From NCBI GenBank assembly GCA_030041475.1, contig JASHNU010000089.1:1-64000 (forward strand): a stretch of 64,000 nucleotides of DNA. The letters run 5' to 3'. The notes under the pieces are model-generated. The model worked only from the letters and a program-made list of their open reading frames with translations. It was not told where the DNA came from and searched no databases. The position numbers and the translations under genes are program-made. Below are positions 24,054 to 63,983 of this stretch, in pieces (the first letter of the stretch is position 1; each line of letters opens with the position of its first letter). The DNA is from Candidatus Sulfotelmatobacter sp. (lineage in GTDB: Bacteria; Acidobacteriota; Terriglobia; Terriglobales; Acidobacteriaceae).

Positions 24054-25841
24054 TTATGCCTCGTCGTGAGGCGAGTTCACCTGCTCCGGCGAGGTCTGCA
24101 TCACATAGTCGCCTGCGGAACCTTGCACGCCGTACTGGTACGGATCGTGGAAAACCTCGGGCAGTGTGTCCCCAAAATTGTTGTGCGGAGGGGGCGTGGT
24201 CGGCGTGCTCCACTCCAGCGATGTGGCCTGCCACGGATTGTCAGTTGCCTGTTGGCCGGCGAAACGGCTGTGAATCAGGTTGTACAGGAAAATCACCTGC
24301 ACCGCACCAGTGAACAAAGCGGCGACGGTGATGAACTGGTGCAAGGGAATCAGCGGCTGCATGTAGTCGGCCACGAACGCCTGGTAGCGGCGTACGTTCC
24401 CTGCAAGTCCGAGATAGTGGAACGGCATGAAGATGGCATACGCGCCCACAAACGTGCACCAGAAGTGAATCTTGCCCAGGGTCTCGTTCATCATTCGCCC
24501 GTACATCTTGGGGAACCAGAAATACGTTCCCGCGAAGATGCCGAACATCGCCGCCACGCCCATCACGAGATGGAAGTGACCGACCACGAAGTAGGTCGCG
24601 TGCAGCATGATGTCGGTTGAGGGCTGCGCCAGGAAGAAACCGCTGACCCCCCCCGAGATGAACATCGAAATGAAACCGAGGGCGAACAGCGACGCCGCGT
24701 TAATGCGTATCTTCGCCCCGTACAAGCTGCCCAGCCAGATGAGTACCACGATGGTCGACGGAATCGTGATCACCAGCGTCGGGAACGAGAATGCCAGCGA
24801 GGAAACCGGATTCATCCCGCTGACGAACATGTGGTGCCCGTAAACCATGTAGCTCAGGACCCCCAGAGCTCCCATCGAATACACCAACACCCGATGGCTC
24901 AGCATCGGCCTGCGAAGGTTGGTGATCAACACGTGCGAGACGATGCCCATGCCGGGCACGATGGCGATATATACCTCTGGATGGCCGAAGAACCAGAAAA
25001 GGTGCTGCCAAAGCAGAGTCGATCCACCCGAGTGCGGTTGCAGCTGATCGTTCAGGACCAGATTTGACGGGACGAAGAAGCTCGTTCCAGCCACGTGGTC
25101 CAGAATGAGCAGGATGCAGCCCGGCATCAGGACTGCGAACGCAGTCAAGCCCATGCACGATGTGATGAACCACCCCCACGCGCTGAGCGGCAGGCGCCAC
25201 AAGCTCATGCCCTTGCAGCGCATGTCCAGCGTGGTGGTGATGAAATTCAGCGAACCCAGCAACTGGCCCACGCAGAAAATCGCGATCGACGTGGCCCAGA
25301 GCACTACGCCCCAACCCTCTCCAGGACCGCCGACGGGGCCGAGCGCGCTCAGCGGTGCGTATTGCGTCCAGCCGCCGAGCGTTGGGCCGTCGCTCACGAA
25401 GAACGACGCCACCAGCACCAGGAAGCCGGTGAACGTCACCCAGAAACTCATCATGTTGAAGTGGGGGAAGGGCATGTCTTCCGCGCCAGCCTGGATCGGC
25501 AAAAAATAGTTGCCAAAAGCTGCAAATGGCGCTGTGGTCAGCACGAAGAAGACCATGATTGTGGCATGCATGGTCATCAACTGCAGGTAGTATTCGGGCG
25601 TCATCACGTTCCCGGGCGCACCGTTGGCCGACAGCAGATGCAATCCGGGAATGGCATAGTTCGTCCACCCCAGGTGAATGCGCATCAGCCACGACAGCAC
25701 CATCCCGATCAGCACGGCCACCAACGCCAGGCCGTAATACTGCTTCCCGATGACCTTATGATCGAGGCTGAAAACGTGCTTATGGATGAAACTGGTCGGC
25801 TCTCCGTGATGTACGGCCGCATGGCCTGACATGTCGTGCAT
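24054..25841 (-). CDS. coxA: Cytochrome c oxidase subunit I, type A1 heme-copper oxidase
   Basis: Catalytic subunit that reduces O2 to water and pumps protons across the inner membrane. The 595 residues have about twelve helices. Ligands are visible: H92 (MHATIMVFF) and H424 for the low-spin heme, H287 (GHPEVY), H336 and H337 (YGHHMF) for CuB, and H422 (VVGHFHLVMG) for the high-spin heme. E289 and Y291 in GHPEVYI mark type A1, and the D-channel set N111, D122 (GAEDMPFPHFN) and N129 is present. It sits between coxB and coxC as in standard aa3 operons. Confidence 0.97.
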   Translation of the reverse strand: MHDMSGHAAVHHGEPTSFIHKHVFSLDHKVIGKQYYGLALVAVLIGMVLSWLMRIHLGWTNYAIPGLHLLSANGAPGNVMTPEYYLQLMTMHATIMVFFVLTTAPFAAFGNYFLPIQAGAEDMPFPHFNMMSFWVTFTGFLVLVASFFVSDGPTLGGWTQYAPLSALGPVGGPGEGWGVVLWATSIAIFCVGQLLGSLNFITTTLDMRCKGMSLWRLPLSAWGWFITSCMGLTAFAVLMPGCILLILDHVAGTSFFVPSNLVLNDQLQPHSGGSTLLWQHLFWFFGHPEVYIAIVPGMGIVSHVLITNLRRPMLSHRVLVYSMGALGVLSYMVYGHHMFVSGMNPVSSLAFSFPTLVITIPSTIVVLIWLGSLYGAKIRINAASLFALGFISMFISGGVSGFFLAQPSTDIMLHATYFVVGHFHLVMGVAAMFGIFAGTYFWFPKMYGRMMNETLGKIHFWCTFVGAYAIFMPFHYLGLAGNVRRYQAFVADYMQPLIPLHQFITVAALFTGAVQVIFLYNLIHSRFAGQQATDNPWQATSLEWSTPTTPPPHNNFGDTLPEVFHDPYQYGVQGSAGDYVMQTSPEQVNSPHDEA

Positions 25842-53164: not shown

Positions 53165-54823
53165 CTAGAACCTGAACTGTAGCCGCTGCAAAACAACGTA
53201 GTAGTTCTGCGGCACATTGCCGATCGTGCTGGGATCTTTCAGCTGATCGATGCCCACATTGACCACATATTTGACCCAGTAGTTTGGATACCAGTTGATG
53301 CCCACGGTGTACTCGAACGTGTGGTAATCAAAGGTCGGAACATATTCCGGGGTGTAGTAACTGTAGAAGTTTGCGCCCGGCTCATTGGCTTGGATGCCGG
53401 TAAACCGGAAACCAACTTCCCACGCTCCTAATCCGCGCCCCTTGCCACCGGGAGTATCGGGACCAAACAGCGGATTCTTGACGCGAGGAGTGCCATTCTC
53501 CGGCCGCTTTTCGCCCGTCAGCAAATAAGTCGTGCTAAGGTCCCATGCTTTGCCAGTAATTCCCGGCAAACTGATGAAACCGAGCCCTCCCGCCTGCTCG
53601 GAACCGACATTGCGACGGAACTGATTGATCTGATCGTATTCGCCACGCAGCGCGAAATTCGATTTCAGGTAGGTGAACTCGCCGTTGTAGCGCTCGATGG
53701 GACCGTTGATGGGGAACTGCGGGAAAAAGCTGTAGGCGCCGTCGGGCAATGTGCTCGCGAAGCTTAGGTCGCCAGAAAGACCACGGGAACGGCCATAGTC
53801 AACGGAACCGCCGAAGGCGAGTTCCTTGAACCAGCTGCTGTTGGTTTTGCGCCAAGGGTAGAAGCGAAGCCTTCCAATCACTTCCGGTTGATTGGTCGTG
53901 TTGGCGGTGGCGTACCCTTTGCCGTTAAACGCCCCAATCCAGTACTGCATGACGCCACCAGAAATATCGCCATGAATGGCAGCGCCCGGACTGCGGTAGG
54001 CAGAGGCTGCAGAGGGGTACAACATGGACTGGAAACCACGCTCCACAAAGTCCAGATTGGTGTCGCCGATTCCGGTTTCCTGGGCAAAAGGAGCCTTGAA
54101 CTGGCCGACCTGAAACTGGAACTCTGGGTTGACTCTTATGTTGAGGTAAACGTCCCGCACCACAGATCCAGTCGTGGAGGCCGCGTCAGTGAGCAGCGCG
54201 AAATCGAAGTGCGACCCGTAATTACCCTGGAAGCCGAATCGTGCCTGACGCAGGATGAACGTGTCCGCCGGGGCTCCGTCGCCCTGGTAGGCTCGGTAAT
54301 CGTTATTCACGTAGCCGTAAGGGCTGATGCTGAACTGCCCGTCAGCGCTTCGGATGAAGAAGTGCTCGCCGTTCCACCCCGCGGCAAGCGGTGCCGTGTC
54401 TTTCTTGGGCTCTCCAGCGGGAGCCTGCTCAACCATGGGCCAGGCTTCGGGCTCAGGCTCTCGCAGAACCGCGTCGCTAAGATGGACACCTGCGCCACCC
54501 GAAGCATCCGCTGGCTGCCATAGAGCTTCCGTCGTGGCCGCGACCGGCTTGACGGTGGCCGTACCCTCCGCCGTCCCTTTGGCGATTGGCTCCTGGGCCT
54601 TATCCTGGGCCTTGGCCAGTTTCTCCACCAGCGCCTTCAGTTCTTCGATGGTTTGGCGTTGCGCCGCCACTTCGCTGCGCAACTGATCCACCTCAGCCTT
54701 GGTGGCGCTCGGAGATGGGGACCCTCCCGCATTGGCGGCTGGCTCGGTGCCTTGAGCAAGGACGAATGAGCCGGGTGCCACGAAAAAGACGAGCAGCACA
54801 AGAAGCTTTATCAGCGAGCGCAT
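53165..54823 (-). CDS. OprP/OprO-like phosphate-selective porin
   Basis: A 552-residue outer-membrane protein starting MRSLIKLLVLLVFFVAPG at 54823 behind GGGAGA; the frame is open to 55291 but that extension looks non-coding. After the signal peptide comes a coiled coil for trimer or wall contact (EVDQLRSEVAAQRQTIEELKALVEKL), an Ala/Thr linker, then the barrel with ISPYGYVNNDYRAY, LRQARFGFQGNYG, FQVGQFKAPFAQE and a terminal Phe (LQRLQFRF). The family lets phosphate or other anions through. With the PstS-like protein 4 kb away it could serve phosphate uptake, but specificity cannot be read directly. Confidence 0.85.
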   Translation of the reverse strand: MRSLIKLLVLLVFFVAPGSFVLAQGTEPAANAGGSPSPSATKAEVDQLRSEVAAQRQTIEELKALVEKLAKAQDKAQEPIAKGTAEGTATVKPVAATTEALWQPADASGGAGVHLSDAVLREPEPEAWPMVEQAPAGEPKKDTAPLAAGWNGEHFFIRSADGQFSISPYGYVNNDYRAYQGDGAPADTFILRQARFGFQGNYGSHFDFALLTDAASTTGSVVRDVYLNIRVNPEFQFQVGQFKAPFAQETGIGDTNLDFVERGFQSMLYPSAASAYRSPGAAIHGDISGGVMQYWIGAFNGKGYATANTTNQPEVIGRLRFYPWRKTNSSWFKELAFGGSVDYGRSRGLSGDLSFASTLPDGAYSFFPQFPINGPIERYNGEFTYLKSNFALRGEYDQINQFRRNVGSEQAGGLGFISLPGITGKAWDLSTTYLLTGEKRPENGTPRVKNPLFGPDTPGGKGRGLGAWEVGFRFTGIQANEPGANFYSYYTPEYVPTFDYHTFEYTVGINWYPNYWVKYVVNVGIDQLKDPSTIGNVPQNYYVVLQRLQFRF

Positions 54824-54973
54824 GGGTTGTTCTCCCAAATGATTTGCAAAAACGGCCTCAAGACGGTGCAGACACGGGCTGCGGCAATGTTGGGTTCGGG
54901 TTGAGCGTTGACGACGAAATGGCGTACTGAAACTTGATCCGGTATGAAAAGCGGACCAGTGACCGACTCGGCG

Positions 54974-55002
54974 GTTTAACACGTAGAAATGAAGACTGTC
55001 AA
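54974..55002 (-). promoter_or_regulatory. Possible sigma-70 promoter for the porin gene
   Basis: On the minus strand, a perfect -35 TTGACA (55002-54997) is followed 17 bases later by TTAAAC (54979-54974), a weak -10. It lies about 150 bases upstream of the porin start. The rest of the 589-base gap 54824-55412 shows no convincing gene on either strand. Confidence 0.4.
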
Positions 55003-55298
55003 GAAAACTTTTCAATGAGCCGCTGCCGAACATTAATTCCGCGGCCAACGCGTAGTTTGGAGTTCGCCGAACAGTAAACATTCTCCGAGGCTTGCCCAGG
55101 GGTAAGTTCAATGCTCCAGCCGCGTGATCGGAACCTCCGATCAAACCAAGGGCGTATACTTTCCTGTTAGGGCGGTCGGGAGGGCGTGCCAGCGCTCTCT
55201 GGATTTGGATTATCGTCTGCTTCTCAGCCCGCGTCATCATCTCACGGCGTGAATGAGGGCAATAAGGAGAACTAATCGAATCGATCAACAAAATTAAC

Positions 55299-55412: not shown

Positions 55413-56570
55413 ATGAGTGCTATCTCACAACCTTCTGCGCGCGAGCTGTTCGCCCCGCTGAACCCCCCGCAGCGTTATCTTTTCGGCCCCGGACCCACGA
55501 TGGTCGACCCACGCGTCTACCAGGCGCTCTCAAAACCGATCGTTGGACATCTGGATCCGTACTTCATCGACATGATGCAGGATGTGCAAGAGCTGCTCAA
55601 GACGGCATTTGGCTTCAAGAGCGGCTCGACGCTGGTGATTTCTGGCACAGGCAGCGCAGGCATGGAAGCCAGCGTCGCTAACTTTGTCGAGCCGGGAGCA
55701 AAGTTCGCCGTGTTTGCCAACGGGTATTTCTCCGATCGCTTGACGGAAATGGCCCGGCGCAACGGCGCCAATGTGGTGCGATTCGAGAAGGCATGGGGAG
55801 AAACGTTCAGCGACGCCGAGGCGTCGGATTTCATTCGTCGCGAGAAACCGGCCGTGGTGGGCTATGTCCATGCCGAGACGTCGACGGGTGCGTTGCAGGA
55901 AGGACAGGCGATCTGCGCCGCGGCACATGATGCCGGGGCTCTGGTGATCGCCGACTGCGTTACGTCGCTCGGAGGCCTCCCGGTCGAGTTCGATCGCACC
56001 GCCATCGACATCGCTTACAGTTGCACACAGAAGGGATTGAGTTGCCCGCCGGGTTTGTCGCCGATGGCGCTGTCGCCGCGAGCGATGGATTGGCTGCGCG
56101 CTCGCACCACCTCACCGCGGAGCTGGTATCTGGATCTCAAGCTGATTCACGATTACTCCACCGTTTCGCACCGCTACCACCACACTGCTCCGATTTCGAT
56201 GTTTTACGCGCTGCGCGAGGCGCTGCTCGTGATTGCCGAGGAGGGTATTGAAAACCGTTGGGAGCGTCATCGCCGTTTCCACAGGTTTTTTGTGCGCGAG
56301 ATCGAAGCCATGGGATTGCATATGCACGTTCCCGCGTCCCACCGCATTCCAACGTTGAACACGGTGCTGGTGCCAAGTGGCGTGGATGACGGCAAAGTGC
56401 GCAAACGGCTGCTGGAAGGTCCGGGCATCGAAATCGCCGGCGGATTTGGACCGCTGGCCGGCAAGGTCTTTCGTATCGGCGTCATGGGGCCGCTGGCTAC
56501 GGAAGAGAATCTGAAATTCTTCTTGGCCGAGTTTAAGAAGGCCTTGAAGGCGGAGGGCTACTCGATCTAG
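55413..56570 (+). CDS. Alanine/serine-glyoxylate aminotransferase (class V)
   Basis: A 385-residue PLP enzyme that transaminates glyoxylate to glycine using alanine or serine. Marks are LFGPGPTMVDPRVYQALSKP at the N-terminus, VISGTGSAGMEASVANFVEPG, the PLP-binding Asp in DAGALVIADCVTSLGG, and the Schiff-base lysine in YSCTQKGLSCPPG. The C-terminal LLEGPGIEIAGGFGPLAGKVFRIGVMG segment is typical of the AGAT branch. It is the first gene of the probable oxalate/glyoxylate locus, 100 bases before the ligase gene. Which amino donor it uses cannot be decided here. Confidence 0.9.
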   Translation: MSAISQPSARELFAPLNPPQRYLFGPGPTMVDPRVYQALSKPIVGHLDPYFIDMMQDVQELLKTAFGFKSGSTLVISGTGSAGMEASVANFVEPGAKFAVFANGYFSDRLTEMARRNGANVVRFEKAWGETFSDAEASDFIRREKPAVVGYVHAETSTGALQEGQAICAAAHDAGALVIADCVTSLGGLPVEFDRTAIDIAYSCTQKGLSCPPGLSPMALSPRAMDWLRARTTSPRSWYLDLKLIHDYSTVSHRYHHTAPISMFYALREALLVIAEEGIENRWERHRRFHRFFVREIEAMGLHMHVPASHRIPTLNTVLVPSGVDDGKVRKRLLEGPGIEIAGGFGPLAGKVFRIGVMGPLATEENLKFFLAEFKKALKAEGYSI

Positions 56571-56670
56571 TTTGCCCATTCGTCGTGGCTAAAGACGGGT
56601 GCGAAAAGCGCCGCTTGTATCGATCCGTCGCCGACATTGCGCCCAGGGTACCGGGCCGAGGACTGCTTCC

Positions 56671-58194
56671 ATGTCTACCAAACTCACCCTGAAATCCGTC
56701 ACAACTCTGCTCGACGTTTTGCACTATGCAGATAGTCACGCCGCGATCGCTGTGCCTGAACTTGAAATCTTTGTCACCTACGATTCGTTGCGCGAGCAGG
56801 TCTTGGCGATGGCTGACGCCTTGGCCTCCGCCGGCATTCGCCGCGGAGACCGCGTGGCGATGGCACTGCCCAACGGACTGCCTGCCATCGTAAGTTTCCT
56901 GGCTGCATCGATTGCCGGAACTGCCGCGCCATTGAATCCGGCTTATCCGTACGAAGAGTTCCTGTTTTTCCTCCGCGACACGGAGGCGAAGTTGTTGCTG
57001 TCTCCGCCAGCCGGCGCGAATTTCGTGCGCAGCGCTGCGACGGACCTGAAAATTCCCGTCCTTGAGGTCGGCATGACCGACAAGGGCATGGCTCACCTCA
57101 TCGATGCTCCCTCGGGAGCGAAAGCGGTTGAGCCAACTCCCGATGACATCGCCCTGGTGCTGCACACCAGTGGCAGCACCGGACGCCCGAAGCGCGTCCC
57201 GTTGCGTCATTTCAACCTGGCCGTGTCGGCCGCGAACATCGCCAATACCTATGCGCTTTCGGAGGACGATGTCTCGTTGTGCATCATGCCGCTGTTTCAC
57301 ATCCACGGCCTGATCGGATCCGCCATGTCCACGCTCCTCTCCGGCGGCGAACTCGTTGTCCCTACGAAATTCAACGCGCTGACCTTCTGGAAAACGGTGC
57401 GCGAGCATCACGTCACCTGGTATTCGGGTGTCCCGACGATGCATCAAGTGCTTTTGGCGCGCACGCACCACAAGCTGCCGGAAGCGGCAACGCTGCGTTT
57501 CATCCGTTCGTGCAGCGCGCCTCTGTCCGCTGAACTGATTCACAAAATTGAGGGCATCTTCGGCGTGCCATTTGTCGAAGCATACGGAATGACCGAGGCC
57601 TCGCATCAAATGACTTCGAATCCGCTGCCTCCGCGGCATCGCAAGGCGGGGTCTGTGGGAGTCGGCACGGGCATTCGGATCACGGTCATGGACAAAGACG
57701 GCATTGAGCTGGGCATGAATCAGCGGGGAGAAATTGCCATTCAAGGAGCCAGCGTGTTTCGCGGATACGAGAACAATCCCGAGGCCAATGCGCGCGCGCT
57801 GACGCGAGGATGGTTTCGCACCGGCGACGAAGGATTTCTCGACGAGGACTGCTACCTGCATCTGACCGGCCGCATTAAAGACATCATCATCCGCGGCGGA
57901 GAGAATGTCGCGCCGCATGAGGTCGACGAGATTTTGCTCAAGCATCCCGCGGTGGCGGCGGCCGTCACTTTCCCGTTTGCTCATCCCACACTGGGTGAAG
58001 AGATAGCTGCGGCCGTGGTGCTCCACGAGCCGCACGGCGCAACTGAGAAGGATCTTTTGAAGCATTGTCGCGAGTGCCTGGCGGAATATAAGTGTCCGAA
58101 GAAGATCCACCTGGTGACCAGCATTCCCACCACCGCCACCGGGAAGATTCGCCGCCGCGCTGTAGCGGCCGCTTTGCTGGATATCGACGCATGA
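56671..58194 (+). CDS. AMP-forming acyl-CoA ligase of AAE3/Pcs60 (oxalyl-CoA synthetase-like) type
   Basis: A 507-residue ANL enzyme starting MSTKLTLKSVTTLL at 56671; the frame is open from 56599. Motifs: LVLHTSGSTGRPKRVPLRH (phosphate loop), IMPLFHIHGLIGSAMSTLLSGG, TWYSGVPTMHQVLL, FVEAYGMTEASHQM, WFRTGDEGFLDEDCYLHLTG and the catalytic lysine in TTATGKIRRR. The combination of MPLFHIHGLI and WYSGVPT is what I know from plant AAE3 and yeast Pcs60, which make oxalyl-CoA from oxalate. The next gene overlaps it (ATGA). Oxalate as substrate is inferred from similarity and from neighbours; other small dicarboxylates are possible. Confidence 0.85.
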   Translation: MSTKLTLKSVTTLLDVLHYADSHAAIAVPELEIFVTYDSLREQVLAMADALASAGIRRGDRVAMALPNGLPAIVSFLAASIAGTAAPLNPAYPYEEFLFFLRDTEAKLLLSPPAGANFVRSAATDLKIPVLEVGMTDKGMAHLIDAPSGAKAVEPTPDDIALVLHTSGSTGRPKRVPLRHFNLAVSAANIANTYALSEDDVSLCIMPLFHIHGLIGSAMSTLLSGGELVVPTKFNALTFWKTVREHHVTWYSGVPTMHQVLLARTHHKLPEAATLRFIRSCSAPLSAELIHKIEGIFGVPFVEAYGMTEASHQMTSNPLPPRHRKAGSVGVGTGIRITVMDKDGIELGMNQRGEIAIQGASVFRGYENNPEANARALTRGWFRTGDEGFLDEDCYLHLTGRIKDIIIRGGENVAPHEVDEILLKHPAVAAAVTFPFAHPTLGEEIAAAVVLHEPHGATEKDLLKHCRECLAEYKCPKKIHLVTSIPTTATGKIRRRAVAAALLDIDA

Positions 58195-59186
58195 GGTTCC
58201 TGATTGCGGGCGCAGGGGCGATCGGCGCTTACATCGGCGCGCGCATGACCCATGCCGGATTCGACGTGACTCTGTTTGCGCGCGGGCCTCACCTGAAGGC
58301 CATGCAGGAGCGTGGCGTTGAGGTACGGAGTTCCGAAGGAAATTTCCAGGTACAGCCTCGCATTGTCGCATCGCTCGAAGAAGCTGGGCCGGTGGACGTG
58401 GTTTTTCTGGGCGTGAAGGCACACGGCCTTCCCCAGCTTGCGCCTCAGCTGAAGCCGGTACTGGGGCGCGACACGACGGTCGTCAGCACGCAGAACGGAA
58501 TTCCCTGGTGGTACTTTCAGGGTTTCGGCGGCCCGTGGGATGGTCTGCGTCTCGAGCGCATCGATCCGGGCGGCGTGATTTCTAATGCGATCGAAGCCCG
58601 CCGCGTGGTCGGTTCGATCGTCTATTTCTCCACACAAATTGTCGCTCCAGGAGTAATTCAACACACCGAGGGCAACCGCATTTCTCTCGGCGAACCGGAC
58701 GGCGCGCGCTCCGAGCGTTGCCGCAAAATCGCGGAAGCGCTGGTGGCGTCAGGTCTGCGCTGTCCCGTCAGCGCCCGTCTCCGGCAGGAAATCTGGGTCA
58801 AGATTCTGGGCAACGCCTCGCTGAATCCCCTAAGCGCATTGACCCGCGCCACTCTTGCCCAAATGTTGCGCGACCCCGGAGTCGCCAGCGTGATTCGGAA
58901 CATCATGCTCGAGGTGGAAGCAGTCTCACACAAACTGGGAATGGGACTGCCCGTTTCCATCGAGCAACGAATGGCCGGCGCTGAGAAAGTTGGCGAACAC
59001 AAAACATCAATGCTCCAGGATCTCGAAGCCGGACGGCCCATGGAACTTGAAGCCCTCGTCGGTTCGGTCGTAGAGTTGGGGGAAAAAGTGGGCGTGGCGA
59101 TGCCTCATACGACAACGGTCTACCATTGCGCGAAGTTGCTCGGACTGTCGAGCCTGGCTGCCACTCACGCTGCGAAACCGGCTTGA
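58191..59186 (+). CDS. Ketopantoate reductase (PanE/ApbA) family oxidoreductase
   Basis: A 331-residue NADPH-dependent reductase, ATGA-coupled to the ligase gene. It shows the N-terminal MRFLIAGAGAIGAYIGARM dinucleotide motif, VDVVFLGVKAHGLPQ, TVVSTQNGIPWWYFQG, the catalytic lysine in LRQEIWVKILGNASLNPLSALT, and a C-terminal acidic residue region EALVGSVVELGE. The family reduces 2-ketopantoate, but many members of unclear substrate sit in catabolic operons, and the WWYFQGFGGPW insertion departs from PanE. Here reduction of a small 2-oxoacid such as glyoxylate is an attractive guess only. Confidence 0.85.
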   Translation: MRFLIAGAGAIGAYIGARMTHAGFDVTLFARGPHLKAMQERGVEVRSSEGNFQVQPRIVASLEEAGPVDVVFLGVKAHGLPQLAPQLKPVLGRDTTVVSTQNGIPWWYFQGFGGPWDGLRLERIDPGGVISNAIEARRVVGSIVYFSTQIVAPGVIQHTEGNRISLGEPDGARSERCRKIAEALVASGLRCPVSARLRQEIWVKILGNASLNPLSALTRATLAQMLRDPGVASVIRNIMLEVEAVSHKLGMGLPVSIEQRMAGAEKVGEHKTSMLQDLEAGRPMELEALVGSVVELGEKVGVAMPHTTTVYHCAKLLGLSSLAATHAAKPA

Positions 59187-59248
59187 ACCAACAGCCTTCT
59201 CAGGGCCGTCCCTCGCCGGCGCCGAGAAATTGCCCGCCCCTTGACAAC

Positions 59249-59284
59249 CGGAGTATACTCCGTGTGGTCCACTTATCGGACCAC
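59249..59284 (+). promoter_or_regulatory. Operator-like dyads upstream of the FadR-type regulator
   Basis: Two perfect inverted repeats lie side by side: CGGAGTATACTCCG (59249-59262) and GTGGTCC-N7-GGACCAC (59264-59284). They sit next to a consensus -35 TTGACA (59241-59246) and 14 bases before the regulator's ATG at 59298. The GGTCC-type half sites resemble those of FadR-subfamily GntR proteins, so autoregulation by the downstream gene product is likely. I found no second copy by eye before 55413 or before 60263. Confidence 0.7.
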
Positions 59285-59297
59285 TTTGGGGTTTCCC

Positions 59298-60011
59298 ATG
59301 TCTTCAGCTCTCAATTCCAACTTCGAGATCATCCGCCGCAATAAAGTCTACGAAGACGTCGCACGGCAGATCGAGCGCCTGATTCTCAAGAAACTGCATC
59401 CCGGCGACAAACTCCCTTCCGAACGCGAGCTCGCTGAAACTCTCTCCGTGAGCCGCAGTTCGATTCGCGACGCCATTCGCAGCTTGGAACTGATGGGCAT
59501 GGTGGAACCGCGGCAGGGCGCGGGCACGATCGTTCGCGAGATCACTGCCAACTCCGTAGCCAATCCACTGACCAATGCCCTAAAGCGCAAAAAGGAACTG
59601 ATGAGCGAACTGCTCGATTTCCGCCGCATCCTCGAGCCGCCGCTGGCCGCGCGCGCCGCCACGCACGCTTCGGCCGAAGAGATTGCGGAGATGGAGGACA
59701 TCCTCAACCGGCAAGAGACGAAACTGCGCAAGGGTGAAAGCACAATTCCCGAAGATTCCGAGTTTCACTATGCCGTCGCCATGGCATCGGGCAACAGCGT
59801 TGTGCTCAAGGTGCTCGACATTCTGATGGATCTGCTGCGGGAGACGCGCGAACGCAGCCTGCAGGTTGAGGGGCGCCCGCAAAAGTCGATTGCCGGCCAT
59901 CGTCGTATCCTGGCCGCGATCAAGCGCCATGACACGGAGGGTGCAAAAGCCGCCATGCGCCGGCATATTGAGGACGTCGAAGAGATTGTTCTGCACGAAG
60001 TGCATTATTGA
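59298..60011 (+). CDS. GntR-family (FadR subfamily) transcription regulator
   Basis: A 237-residue regulator starting MSSALNSNFEIIRRNKVYEDV at 59298; the in-frame start at 59241 would put the operator inside the gene. The winged helix has PGDKLPSERELAETLSVSRSSIRDAIRSLELMG and a GAGTIV wing. The C-terminal FCD domain carries its metal/ligand region as DFRRILEPPLAARAA, DSEFHYAVAMASGN and a final histidine in GHRRILAAI. Ligands of this family are typically small carboxylates such as lactate, glycolate, pyruvate or malonate. It sits between the ligase/reductase genes and the oxidoreductase genes and is inferred to control both. Confidence 0.92.
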   Translation: MSSALNSNFEIIRRNKVYEDVARQIERLILKKLHPGDKLPSERELAETLSVSRSSIRDAIRSLELMGMVEPRQGAGTIVREITANSVANPLTNALKRKKELMSELLDFRRILEPPLAARAATHASAEEIAEMEDILNRQETKLRKGESTIPEDSEFHYAVAMASGNSVVLKVLDILMDLLRETRERSLQVEGRPQKSIAGHRRILAAIKRHDTEGAKAAMRRHIEDVEEIVLHEVHY

Positions 60012-60262
60012 ATTTGATCGAATATGAGTTGCTTGCGTAAACGATCGCTTCTGTGGGCGATCCTTTACGAATAGAACTACGGGGAACGTGGCCGCTCCGG
60101 GAAGTGCTGCCGCAAGCAGGTCTGGGGATATCCGAAGTGACCGAATTCGAAAACGAGATTTCTCGTGAGGCCGCGACGCCTCGCGCTGAGAACTGGACTG
60201 CGGCGGGAACATCCGATTGCAATTCAGTTTCAGAGACATCCTGAATCTGGACGAGGTTGAAC

Positions 60263-60910
60263 ATGAGCTACACAGAACTTACGGTTTGGACGCGCGGCAT
60301 CATCATGGACAAGGAAGGCCGCGACATTGTCAATTCCGTCTCCGCATCGGCTCGCCTGGAAGGCAAGTACGCGCAGGCGATGGAAAACTACGTGGACAAT
60401 CCCGATCGCACGAACGCGCCTACGCGCAAGTACTGCCGCGTGAGCGACCGGGTGCTCGAGAACGAACTCACCTACGAAAACGAGCACCCGAACATCGTCG
60501 TGCTGGTGGAAGACACGATGGTCAAAGGCTGGGATTACATGCGCGGTATGCCTCCCGGCGGAACGCTAATCATCAATACGCACTATTCGCCCGACTACAT
60601 GCTTCGCTTCGTGCCTGGGGTCGAGCGGCTGGCACAACTGGTCTGTGTGGACGCGGCTCACTTGGCGCACCACAAGTGGTTGTATTACCGGCTGGGCGAA
60701 TTGGGTCTCGACCGCCTTTCAACCGAGGGCGCGGCCGAGCGCAGCAAACTGATCGCTCCGGACATCGCTGCTCCGCTGATCGCTGCGCTCGTCAAATCCA
60801 CGGGCATCGTCAAGATGGAGACGATCCTGCCCATGATCGCCAACAAGAACGCATTTGAAATGGCGTTGAGCGAAATGAAGATCATGCAATTCAACCCAGT
60901 GGCTGTGTAG
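60263..60910 (+). CDS. 2-oxoacid:ferredoxin oxidoreductase gamma-type subunit
   Basis: A 215-residue subunit starting MSYTELTVWTRGIIMDKEG behind GAGG (60253-60256). It has the gamma-domain features of the POR family: SRYCRVSD-like KYCRVSDRVLENELTYENEHPNIVVLVEDT in the middle, GMPPGGTLIINTHYSP, VCVDAAHLAH and a final NKNAFEMALSEMKI segment. The first glycine-rich loop of classic gamma subunits (G.GGQG) is not evident, so it is a divergent member. It bridges CoA-site or structural contacts of the alpha-beta core in relatives. It is 10 bases upstream of the flavoprotein gene. The 250 bases before it (60012-60262) hold no clear gene. Confidence 0.78.
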   Translation: MSYTELTVWTRGIIMDKEGRDIVNSVSASARLEGKYAQAMENYVDNPDRTNAPTRKYCRVSDRVLENELTYENEHPNIVVLVEDTMVKGWDYMRGMPPGGTLIINTHYSPDYMLRFVPGVERLAQLVCVDAAHLAHHKWLYYRLGELGLDRLSTEGAAERSKLIAPDIAAPLIAALVKSTGIVKMETILPMIANKNAFEMALSEMKIMQFNPVAV

Positions 60911-60920
60911 GAAGGAACTC

Positions 60921-62753
60921 ATGTCGACAAAGGGCACAAAAATTCCTGATTGGCTTACCGTACCGTTCGCGGGTATCACGCCTGCGCCTTCGCAGGACAA
61001 GGGACAGAACCTGTTTCCCACCGGCAACTGGCGCGCGATCCGGCCTGTTTACCGCGACAAGTTGCCACCCTGCAACAATGCCTGCGGCACCAACGAAAAA
61101 ATCCAGGGATATCTCGATCTGGTGAAGCGCGGCAAGTATCTCGACGCCTATGCACTTATCAAGGAAGACATGCCCTTCCCTTCCGTGACCGGACGCGTGT
61201 GCTACCACCCGTGCGAGCAGGCCTGCAATCGCGGCAAGTACGATGAAGCCATTTCCATTCGCGCAGTCGAGCGCTTCCTCGGCGATCTGGGACAGGCGCT
61301 GAAGCATGATGTAGTGAAGCCGGGAAAACCGAACGGCAAGAAAGTCGCCGTGATCGGCTCCGGGCCCGCAGGCCACAGCGCCGCTTATCAGCTGGCGCGC
61401 ATGGGTTACAAGGTAACGATTCTCGAAAAATCTCCGAAGCCCGGTGGGCTGAACCGCGGCGGCATTCCCGTCTGGGTTCTTCCTCCACACGTGCTCGATC
61501 GCGAAATCGAGCGCCTCGTCGAACTCGGCATCACACTCAAAACCAACACCGAAGTTGGCAAAGACGTCAGCTGGGACGATCTGAAGAAAAACTACGACGC
61601 TTGCGTGCTGGCCGTTGGCCTGACGGAGCCGAACAGCGTGCGCGCCGAAGGTGAGAACAAAGAAGGCGTGCTCTACGGACTTCCCTTCCTGCGCGACATC
61701 GGCATGGGGACATCGAAGGTGAAGCTGGGGCCCCGCGTCGCAGTGATTGGCGGCGGCAATACGGCCATCGACTGCGCCCGCGAAGCGCTGCGGCAAGGTG
61801 CAGTCGAAGTCACTATGATCACGGTCGAAGCGAACACGCAGGAAATGCCAGCCTCGCCGGAAGATCTTCACGACATGTTCGAGGAGGGCGTCGACCTGTG
61901 GCACGGACGCGCGATGACCGCGGTTCTGGGCAACGGCAAGGTCGAATCGCTGCAACTGCATCCGGCGCGCTTCTCCGGCGCCATTAATGCATCGCCGATC
62001 AACATTGATCGCAATGCGCCGGCAGAAAAATTTGCCGTCGACAACGTGATCATCGCCGTGGGGCAACATGCTTCGCTGAACTGGCTGCCGCCGGAATTCA
62101 AGAACGAGCGCGGAACTATCAAGATCGATCGCTTCGGCCGCCTCGGCGATACGAATTTCTTCGCCGCCGGCGACATCGCACAGTTCGGTTCGGGCCAGCC
62201 GCTCATGGTCGTCAATGCAGTCGGCGACGGCAAGCGCGTAGCCTTCAACCTCGACAAAGCATTGCGGGGTGAGCCGCTGCAGCCGCGCACGATCGCCATC
62301 GACGTCATCATGGACCTGAACCGCATGAACATGACGTATTTCCCGCACTTCCCGCGCGTGCACCAGGGCATGCTGAACCCGATCACGCGTAAGAAGACGC
62401 AGGACGAAGTCATCCAACCGTTCACGGAAGAGCAGGCCGTCGAAGAGGCGGCGCGCTGCTTCAGCTGCGGCACCTGCAACGCCTGCGACAACTGTTACCT
62501 GGTCTGTCCAGAGCCGTGCATCACTCGGCCAGAGCGCTCGAACGGCCTGTACAAGATCATCGTCGACTACTGCAAGGGATGCCGCGTGTGCATCGAGGAG
62601 TGTCCGACCGGATGCCTCGAAGGCGTGCCCGAACTCGACTTCGACACCGGTGTGGTGCGCATGGATACTGCCTTTGCCATCAGCCCCGGACTGCACGGAC
62701 GGCAGGCTCAGGAACTCGTGAATCTGGCGAGCCGCCCTGCGAAAAACATCTAG
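60921..62753 (+). CDS. GltD-like FAD/NAD(P) and 4Fe-4S electron-transfer subunit
   Basis: A 610-residue fusion. Residues about 50-115 form the GltD-type N-terminal Fe-S domain (PPCNNACGTNEKIQGY; VCYHPCEQACNRGKYDE). An FAD site follows (VAVIGSGPAGHSAAYQLARMG), then an NAD(P) site (RVAVIGGGNTAIDCAREALR), and at the C-terminus a bacterial ferredoxin domain with two 4Fe-4S sets (CFSCGTCNACDNCYLVCP; YCKGCRVCIEECPTG). Relatives couple NAD(P)H to the Fe-S clusters of 2-oxoacid oxidoreductases. It therefore probably takes the place of both the delta (ferredoxin) subunit and a separate ferredoxin:NADP reductase. It is flanked within 21 bases by gamma- and alpha-type subunits. Confidence 0.88.
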   Translation: MSTKGTKIPDWLTVPFAGITPAPSQDKGQNLFPTGNWRAIRPVYRDKLPPCNNACGTNEKIQGYLDLVKRGKYLDAYALIKEDMPFPSVTGRVCYHPCEQACNRGKYDEAISIRAVERFLGDLGQALKHDVVKPGKPNGKKVAVIGSGPAGHSAAYQLARMGYKVTILEKSPKPGGLNRGGIPVWVLPPHVLDREIERLVELGITLKTNTEVGKDVSWDDLKKNYDACVLAVGLTEPNSVRAEGENKEGVLYGLPFLRDIGMGTSKVKLGPRVAVIGGGNTAIDCAREALRQGAVEVTMITVEANTQEMPASPEDLHDMFEEGVDLWHGRAMTAVLGNGKVESLQLHPARFSGAINASPINIDRNAPAEKFAVDNVIIAVGQHASLNWLPPEFKNERGTIKIDRFGRLGDTNFFAAGDIAQFGSGQPLMVVNAVGDGKRVAFNLDKALRGEPLQPRTIAIDVIMDLNRMNMTYFPHFPRVHQGMLNPITRKKTQDEVIQPFTEEQAVEEAARCFSCGTCNACDNCYLVCPEPCITRPERSNGLYKIIVDYCKGCRVCIEECPTGCLEGVPELDFDTGVVRMDTAFAISPGLHGRQAQELVNLASRPAKNI

Positions 62754-62774
62754 CTAAAGAGAATTGGAGTGAAC

Positions 62775-63983
62775 ATGCCAACGGTTACTGCCACAAAAAA
62801 GAAAACGGTGCGGATTAACGGCTGCGTTGCGTCGGCACAGGCGGCCAAGTACGCCGATGTGGACGTCATCGCCGCCTATCCCATCCGGCCTTATACCGCG
62901 ACCATGATGGCGCTGGCGCAGATGGTCGCCAATGGTGAACTCGACGCCGAGTACATCGTGGCCGACAGCGAGCACTCGCAACTGAGCATCGCGCACGGCG
63001 CCTCGTCAAGCGGCGCCCGAGTCTTCACCGGCAGCTCAGGCGTGGGCGTGCAGTTTGCTTACGAACTGTATTCGCCAATTTCCGGCAGCCGCATGCCCGT
63101 CCAGATGATGATTGCCGACCGGACGCTCGACCCTCCCGGCGATTTCGGCTCCGAGCATACCGACGCGCTTTCCACGCGGGACATGGGCTGGCTCATGGGC
63201 TGGGCCTGTGACGCGCAGGAAGCATTCGACAATCATCTCATTGCCTATCGCATCGGCGAGGACCGGCGCGTGCTTTTACCCCAGATGGTCTGCCAGGACG
63301 GTTTCTTCGTGTCGCACATCACCAGCGACGTAGAACTGCCCGACTCGAGCCAGGTACGAGAATTCTTGCCGCCCTACAAACATCCTTATCCGCTTGATCC
63401 GCGGCATCCGGTATCGCACGGCCCGCAGATCATGCCGGAGCAGGGTCCGCCGCTGCAACTTGAGCGGGCGCGCGCCATGGAAGGTTCAATGGCTGTAATC
63501 GAAGAAGTGCATAAGGAATTCGGCGAGATTTTCGGACGCCATTATGATCCGTGGCTCGAAGAGTACAAGACCGACGATGCCGAAGTCGTTTTCTTCCTGC
63601 AGGGCGGGCACGGAGTCACGGCGCGGTTCGCGATCCAGCACATGCGCGAAAAAGGATTGAAGGTCGGCATGGTGCGGCTGCGTACCATCCGTCCGTATCC
63701 CACCGACCGGGTATGTGAAGTTCTGAGCAAGTTCAAAGTGGTCGGCGTGATCGAAACCAACATGGGACTTGGCAGCCCCAGCAGCGGAGGCGTCCTCTAC
63801 GCCGACGCCTGCGCCGCACTTTACGAGGCTCCAGAACGGCCGCTCGTGATCTCGTTCATGGCCGGCATGGGTGGAGAAGCGATCGTGCTGAAAGAGTTTT
63901 ACTGGATGACCGAAAAGATGATTCAGGCCCAGAAGCGTGGAAAAATCGAAAAGCGCACGCATTGGGTGGGATTCGAAGAATAG
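62775..63983 (+). CDS. 2-oxoacid oxidoreductase alpha subunit, oxalate-oxidoreductase-like
   Basis: A 402-residue alpha subunit starting MPTVTATKKKTVRING behind GGAG. It has the pyrimidine-side TDP fold with ASAQAAKYADVDVIAAYPIRPYT, SEHSQLSIAHGASSSGARVFTGSSGVGVQ, MMIADRTLDPPGDFGSEHTD and a C-terminal MVRLRTIRPYPTDRV domain. The substrate-site position that is Thr in pyruvate oxidoreductase (YPITP) is Arg38 (YPIRP). Arg116, Asp119 and Phe124 follow at the spacing I recall for R31, R109, D112 and F117 of Moorella oxalate oxidoreductase. The enzyme would split oxalate to two CO2 and pass electrons to the upstream subunit. The TDP-binding beta subunit must lie just beyond the window. Confidence 0.85.
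   Translation: MPTVTATKKKTVRINGCVASAQAAKYADVDVIAAYPIRPYTATMMALAQMVANGELDAEYIVADSEHSQLSIAHGASSSGARVFTGSSGVGVQFAYELYSPISGSRMPVQMMIADRTLDPPGDFGSEHTDALSTRDMGWLMGWACDAQEAFDNHLIAYRIGEDRRVLLPQMVCQDGFFVSHITSDVELPDSSQVREFLPPYKHPYPLDPRHPVSHGPQIMPEQGPPLQLERARAMEGSMAVIEEVHKEFGEIFGRHYDPWLEEYKTDDAEVVFFLQGGHGVTARFAIQHMREKGLKVGMVRLRTIRPYPTDRVCEVLSKFKVVGVIETNMGLGSPSSGGVLYADACAALYEAPERPLVISFMAGMGGEAIVLKEFYWMTEKMIQAQKRGKIEKRTHWVGFEE

Follow-up and report, generated by a model that had tools for sequence, protein, structure and literature searches.

We describe a gene set with which soil bacteria very probably take up oxalate and oxidise it to CO2. Taken as a whole, and with a probability of about 0.82, it would provide a NAD-linked variant of oxalate oxidoreductase (OOR) for oxalotrophy in aerobes, accompanied by a glycine branch and a GntR regulon. 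The window, meaning the whole stretch of DNA that was analysed, covers bases 1 to 64,000 of a contig of 111,755 bases (C61) in an acidobacterial genome of 4.63 Mb that is 99.6% complete. The operon runs in the order gamma, a fusion of a GltD-like flavoprotein with delta, alpha, and beta, the last lying just beyond the window (Table 1).

Table 1. Genes and sites at the oxalate loci. Plain positions refer to the window, and prefixed ones to a contig (C) or an extracted locus (L).
Feature	Position	Strand	Details
PF00115 gene	24315-25751	minus	in window, one of four in genome
Porin-like ORF	53165-55291	minus	named from sequence; divergent from aminotransferase
Class-V aminotransferase, alanine/serine-glyoxylate type	55413-56570	+	1vjo alanine-glyoxylate aminotransferase, E=2e-105
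AMP-forming ligase, candidate oxalyl-CoA synthetase	56599-58194	+	
PanE/ketopantoate-reductase-family protein, candidate oxalyl-CoA reductase (PanE2-like)	58191-59186	+	PF02558/PF08546
Sigma-70-like promoter	59230-59259		directly precedes window palindrome
Operator candidate TGGTCC-N7-GGACCA	59265-59283		14 bp before regulator ATG
GntR/FCD-type regulator	59298-60011	+	ATG taken as start, open frame from 59241; PF00392 + PF07729
CDC48-type ATPase remnant, N terminus	60053-60211	+	53 codons, 75% identity
Gamma subunit	60257-60910	+	217 aa from TTG; alternative ATG 60263
GltD/NfnL-like FAD- and NAD(P)-binding flavoprotein with C-terminal two-[4Fe-4S] OOR/POR delta domain	60921-62753	+	610 aa
OOR-like alpha subunit	62769-63983	+	404 aa from GTG; alternative start ATG 62775
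Beta subunit	C61:64001-65065		starts at first base beyond window; best solved match Moorella OOR beta
Conserved 127-aa protein	C61:65062-65445 (L009:1062-1445)		ATG overlaps beta stop
Receiver-like protein	C61:65454-65819 (L009:1454-1819)		after 127-aa protein
Second palindrome site	C61:67084-67102		127 bp before antiporter ATG
Oxalate/formate antiporter (OxlT family)	C61:67230-68576		downstream of operon; 469 bits, cut-off 335
Second YPIRP locus of the same genome	C96, L011:1005-6949		regulator, fused gamma-delta, alpha, beta, oxalate/formate antiporter

The alpha subunit is the starting point of the argument. The frame from which the sequence-only reading set out is present, with ATG 62775 as taken there and GTG at 62769 also possible. 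A phmmer search against all solved structures places alpha with chain A of 5c4i, the Moorella OOR (508 bits, E=1.6e-151), and the next-best solved relative, a pyruvate enzyme, scores 239 bits; with an identity to the Moorella chain of 57% over 389 aa, this likeness is not due to chance. Alpha also passes the curated NCBIfam model for OOR-alpha, NF045791 (581 bits, cut-off 500). The AlphaFold prediction for alpha has 5c4i_A as its top Foldseek match; it was built from 14 sequences, is of middling quality (pLDDT 71), and is unsure at the plug loop, where residues 91-142 fall below 50.

The active-site residues lead to the same enzyme. YPIRP with R38, then R116, D119, and F124, had been singled out earlier; all are present when counted from ATG 62775, as is D123, and the phmmer alignment with 5c4i chain A pairs R38, R116, D119, D123, and F124 with Moorella R31, R109, D112, D116, and F117 without a gap. 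Alpha thus holds equivalents of both substrate-site arginines of OOR, R31 and R109, and of D112, D116, and F117 of the plug or switch loop; in addition, a twelve-residue stretch, ADRTLDPPGDFG, is identical in alpha and 5c4i chain A. We take D112 and F117 to act at the oxalate site and its switch loop in Moorella. For the Moorella enzyme (MtOOR), a passage of PMC5020499 places Arg31 within a ‘unique YPIRP motif’ and names Arg109 and the plug-loop Asp116. Among the relatives that group with the window alpha, here called type 1, R/D/D/F at the four loop positions is kept in 56 of 56 rows, and YPIRP is found in 53 of the 54 rows with letters there (YAIRP in the remaining one); these rows are partly redundant, with the window gene present three times and at least three further contigs entered twice, and they represent alpha ORFs of 250 aa or more, shorter ones such as that of L079 being left out.

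Two trees, of 46 and 44 rows with near-duplicates dropped and with long branches flagged in both, place these sequences relative to two characterised rows, one OOR and one pyruvate enzyme. Type 1 and the Moorella OOR form one clade (100/99), type 2 is its sister (100/100), and the YPITP enzymes lie outside; the same groups are recovered after the motif columns are removed from the alignment. Measured against that one OOR and one pyruvate enzyme, alpha does not fall inside a characterised non-oxalate clade. The proposal of an OOR-type alpha in a soil acidobacterium is therefore borne out by model score, tree, and identity together. The residue match on which the sequence-only reading relied stands as well. 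YPIRP, however, does not mark OOR exclusively, since the sister clade carries the motif too; taken by itself, it therefore leaves the choice of substrate undecided. Oxalate as the inferred substrate of the window enzyme is nevertheless supported, and the neighbouring genes and the common operator point to oxalate independently of the alpha sequence.

Type 2 combines YPIRP with GNRALDDPGAFG. It shares R31, R109, D112, and F117 with the window enzyme and differs in having Ala in place of D116; its alpha is 41% identical to that of the window. Within this clade, YPIRP was seen in 13 distinct genes from Acidobacteria (15 rows, one gene accounting for three) and in 8 further rows, and no characterised member was found. 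The type-2 loci read encode a fused gamma-delta chain, alpha, and beta, and they lack a GltD module, whereas in the window gamma is split off and delta is fused to GltD; a regulator and an antiporter accompany several of them. One type-2 locus belongs to the same genome as the window, and in two loci, L028 and L034, types 1 and 2 stand together in one gene row. The type-2 substrate may also be oxalate.

The remaining subunits resemble OOR in a rearranged form. In the PDB, gamma comes closest to 5c4i_B, the gamma-delta chain of OOR (E=2.8e-44), and the same chain covers residues 518-574 of the flavoprotein-delta protein, where delta models place the domain at 516-575. Gamma (175 bits against NF045790, cut-off 230), delta (50 bits, cut-off 230), and beta (442 of 590 bits) all remain below their NCBI equivalog cut-offs, and we thus treat the complex as an OOR variant rather than a standard member; the NCBI gamma-delta model describes one fused chain, whereas gamma and delta are separate here, and the OOR model is still the top-scoring one for beta and gamma. 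A fused gamma-delta chain of the Moorella type, without flavoprotein, is absent from the window operon. The flavoprotein-delta protein scores 503 bits against PRK12771 (cut-off 516), and its cluster cysteines are kept in all 11 rows printed. In the same 11 rows, the second Rossmann site reads TVE or SLE after its second strand, with an acidic residue; the three reductases aligned for comparison have YRR at that stretch. An acidic residue at this position usually signifies NAD+, which suggests that the GltD-like module passes electrons to NAD+.

Smaller genes accompany the operon. The 127-aa protein has no family match at E 0.001; 1 of its 14 members is weakly similar to ribosomal protein S6 (E 0.059), and its AlphaFold model is uninformative (mean pLDDT 42). 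Where enough flank is available, nearly every acidobacterial locus has both it and the receiver-like gene on the 3' side of beta; neither gene was found in the 5 actinobacterial loci. A CDC48-family AAA ATPase lies between regulator and gamma in most relatives; the window keeps its first 53 codons, and a full-length copy (L029:4693-6951) encodes 752 aa and scores 769 bits (cut-off 803).

The genes around the operon can be tied to oxalate by their best-matching proteins. The closest solved relative of the antiporter is the oxalate:formate antiporter 8hpj, and the genome has two antiporter genes over the cut-off, one at each YPIRP locus (C61 and C96). The carrier is named an oxalate/formate antiporter, but OOR yields no formate, which is a point against the scheme proposed below. 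On the other side of the operon, the four best PDB chains for the ligase are all oxalate-CoA ligases (6qjz, 5ie0, 8aff, and 8atd). The protein encoded next to it resembles PanE2 at the level of family, as opposed to an alignment with the PanE2 sequence itself; PanE2 of Methylobacterium is an oxalyl-CoA reductase according to passages of PMC8411744 and PMC12686821 and is called a CoA-acylating glyoxylate dehydrogenase in a passage of PMC7486775. PanE homologues also lie near oxlT in Azospirillum ramasamyi, with one gene between, and near an oxalate/formate antiporter in Methylobacterium bullatum. For the aminotransferase, no NCBIfam model exceeded its cut-off.

Two further observations concern gene neighbourhoods. 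In a Nonomuraea record, two neighbour genes are acetolactate-synthase-like and CoA-ligase-like and gave no lead. Divergent from the window aminotransferase is the porin-like ORF, and related ORFs are found near OOR in four loci (L039, L042, L072, and L076); it could possibly be an outer-membrane entry for oxalate.

A 19-bp palindrome, TGGTYNRNTNANYRGACCA, links the operon to the carrier. It was reached by eye, through a 24-bp pattern, from the sites before the regulator and the antiporter; looking for a TNGTNNNACNA-type GntR operator had given no useful lead. The exact palindrome occurs at 2 sites in the 4.63-Mb genome, one before each of these genes. At up to one mismatch there are 3 places against 4 matches of a reversed-pattern control, so that only the exact sites stand out genome-wide. 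Across 52 related loci (727 kb) we count 38 exact sites, 18 before the regulator, 20 before the antiporter, and 0 elsewhere; with one mismatch allowed, 45 of 45 sites precede one or the other. The true pattern gives 38, 45, and 57 sites at 0, 1, and 2 mismatches, and the reversed one 0, 1, and 8. Since the 19-bp pattern was composed after viewing sites in related loci, the fit and the counts there are partly built in; their placement and the reversed control are not. Counting loci in which the gene itself exceeds 60% identity, a site at up to one mismatch accompanies 20 of 21 regulators and all 21 antiporters. The palindrome was not found, at up to 2 mismatches, at the type-2 locus that the genome has on C96. 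The GntR regulator would thus control its own operon and the carrier by binding the palindrome, and the position of the palindrome right after a sigma-70-like promoter, matches to which are about equally frequent in shuffles, would fit repression.

This arrangement recurs in relatives. The GTDB genome scan yielded 52 loci, 46 labelled Acidobacteriota, 5 Actinobacteria, and 1 in a metagenome-assembled genome (MAG) called Myxococcales. Some are incomplete operons, and two pairs (L064/L072 and L078/L079) are each two pieces of one MAG. Some contigs were entered twice, through a genome search as well as through the contig scan (L013/L039, L015/L048, and probably L016/L062, to go by contig number and length). 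Identity to the window alpha is 98% in the nearest named relatives, Candidatus Sulfotelmatobacter MAGs, down to 81% in other Acidobacteriota, 63-65% in Actinobacteria, and 87% in the Myxococcales-labelled MAG. The enzyme genes of that MAG (L070) are 83-88% identical to those of the window, which could reflect either transfer or misbinning. Plasmid records matching alpha number 45, all below 60% identity, the best-ranked at 35%.

Linkage and palindrome counts draw exclusively on the contig-scan loci, and the linkage counts on those of the 47 non-actinobacterial loci that have enough flank. The enzyme genes are nearly always together (fused flavoprotein 38/38, gamma 36/37, beta 41/41), as are the regulator (25/25), the 127-aa protein (37/39), and the receiver-like gene (35/37); the CDC48-type ATPase is found in 24/30, and an antiporter-like gene, on either side, in 24/29. 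Fewer than half of the loci have the assimilation genes linked: PanE in 9/22, the ligase in 7/20, and the aminotransferase in 3/20. From the actinobacterial loci, the four enzyme genes alone were recovered at that threshold, and no assimilation genes were seen in these 5 loci, one of which has long flanks; two loci (L068 and L069) have a distant MFS carrier nearby, and L068 also has a GntR-like gene. In evenly drawn samples of 396 genomes each, the cut-off of the alpha model is exceeded in 4 from the window's own phylum and in 3 from the phylum to which the actinobacterial genome G398 belongs.

Other routes of oxalate cleavage were sought in the same genome. Its best score for Oxc (oxalyl-CoA decarboxylase) is 181 of 739 bits, with none over the cut-off; Frc (formyl-CoA:oxalate transferase) and bicupin oxalate decarboxylase gave no match, and the glyoxylate carboligase model reaches 342 of 711 at best. 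The search for oxalate-cleaving enzymes covered Oxc, Frc, and bicupin enzymes. The genome has four members of the heme-copper oxidase family PF00115, and each of 10 other OOR-bearing genomes tried has at least one; PF00115 also covers nitric-oxide reductases, and the host is taken to be an aerobe on the basis of gene content. Because the Oxc, Frc, and bicupin models fail and PF00115 is present, OOR looks like the main oxalate-cleaving enzyme of these oxygen-respiring hosts.

The phylum sample shows Oxc over the cut-off in 0 of 396 genomes. Oxc-like proteins at 520-535 bits occur in 13 phylum genomes of one genus (G089, G108, G117, and ten others), and none of these is among the 12 of the 396 in which an OOR-like alpha, type 1 or type 2, reaches E <= 1e-100. 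The Oxc-like proteins of that genus may give the phylum another way to break down oxalate.

From these elements we propose the following scheme. Oxalate would enter through the OxlT-family carrier and reach a four-subunit OOR of gamma, flavoprotein-delta, alpha, and beta, where it would bind to thiamine pyrophosphate between alpha and beta, its carboxylates held by the Arg31 and Arg109 equivalents. Cleavage would release two CO2 and two electrons; the electrons would probably pass from the [4Fe-4S] cluster of beta through the two delta clusters to the FAD of the GltD-like module, which would reduce NAD+ (less likely NADP+) for aerobic respiration. Part of the carbon could follow a branch from the candidate oxalyl-CoA synthetase through the PanE2-like oxalyl-CoA reductase and the glyoxylate aminotransferase to glycine. 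A dedicated GntR regulator would govern both its own operon and the carrier through the common palindrome.

The acceptor is where a true OOR could depart from this scheme, by delivering electrons to ferredoxin, flavodoxin, or NADP+ while the GltD-like module is otherwise used or supplies NADPH for the PanE-like reductase. Relatives of GltD and Nfn mostly use NADP(H), and PanE2 requires reductant. In a passage of PMC12654022, moreover, the OOR of ‘certain anaerobic bacteria’ gives electrons to ferredoxin. The fusion of the delta clusters to the flavoprotein and the replacement of YRR by TVE or SLE argue against this version, so we hold it to be unlikely, if worth keeping in mind. It is improbable that the enzyme runs in reverse, or that it detoxifies oxalate and does not sustain growth: the chemistry is reversible in principle, and soil oxalate is abundant and mildly toxic, but the carrier and the glycine branch, the latter linked in a minority of relatives, fit use for carbon and energy.

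Another 2-oxoacid oxidoreductase, for glyoxylate, pyruvate, or a phenylglyoxylate-like substrate, might also have come to lie beside oxalate genes by chance. All members of the family have the fold in common, beta and gamma miss the OOR equivalog cut-offs, and NCBIfam names include a NAD-linked phenylglyoxylate dehydrogenase with comparable subunits. Yet neither substrate arginine has been lost, the plug-loop string is intact throughout, the palindrome ties the operon to an oxalate carrier, and the models for the other enzymes score far too low: PadG 253/700, PadI 179/700, and PadE 38/300 bits on the window operon. Pyruvate:ferredoxin oxidoreductase was rejected on YPIRP in place of the YPITP threonine and on PorA (341 bits, cut-off 550); residues, model scores, and tree together speak against pyruvate, 2-oxoglutarate, and phenylglyoxylate enzymes, and these readings were rejected. 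We therefore consider such a coincidence highly improbable.

Relative to earlier work, the NAD-linked OOR variant concerns a known gap between oxalate supply and accumulation: a passage of PMC10192776 notes that soil oxalate accumulates less than plant production suggests, and a text search of the main text of this oxalotrophy survey found no mention of OOR. A passage of another survey of oxalate degradation (PMC8062136) sets OOR aside for lack of information, and part of PMC5986945 scores it absent in four Paraburkholderia terrae strains. OOR-like genes had already been described beyond the acetogens, since a passage of PMC12654022 lists OOR subunits detected by BLASTp for three probiotic strains. 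Our searches of the open-licence literature turned up nothing on OOR in Acidobacteria. What is new is the architecture, together with the hosts, the regulon, and the existence of a second clade. We lean, by a little, towards the wider claim of Oxc/Frc-independent, NAD+-linked oxalate oxidation across soil Acidobacteria and some Actinobacteria, with a new OOR architecture, one GntR regulon that includes the carrier, and, in places, the ferredoxin-type type 2 as an oxalate enzyme also. If true, soil would harbour a class of oxalate consumers so far uncounted, and such oxalotrophs would escape surveys based on counts of oxc, frc, or oxdC. In addition, aerobes would then be using, with NAD+ as acceptor, a low-potential thiamine/[4Fe-4S] enzyme of a kind known from an anaerobe.

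Three known systems bear comparison. The phenylglyoxylate:NAD+ dehydrogenase PadEFGHI of Azoarcus/Aromatoleum includes a NAD-linked flavoprotein subunit; both it and the window complex are 2-oxoacid oxidoreductases with a flavoprotein subunit, and electron delivery may be alike. Oxalyl-CoA reduction by PanE2 in Methylobacterium extorquens has a PanE-family reductase in common with the window; the window differs in its AMP-forming ligase, with no Frc match and no Oxc over the cut-off, and its energy would come from OOR. Closest is the OOR of Moorella thermoacetica (PDB 5c4i, 5exd, and 5exe), with the same substrate residues in alpha, the best match of both beta and gamma, and a delta with two [4Fe-4S] clusters in both systems. 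In Moorella, gamma and delta form a single 315-aa chain and there is no GltD module, whereas the window system keeps gamma separate, fuses delta to a GltD-like flavoprotein, and adds a small protein and a receiver-like protein to the operon. The hosts differ as well: Moorella is an oxygen-avoiding acetogen, and the window host, by its gene content, is an aerobe.
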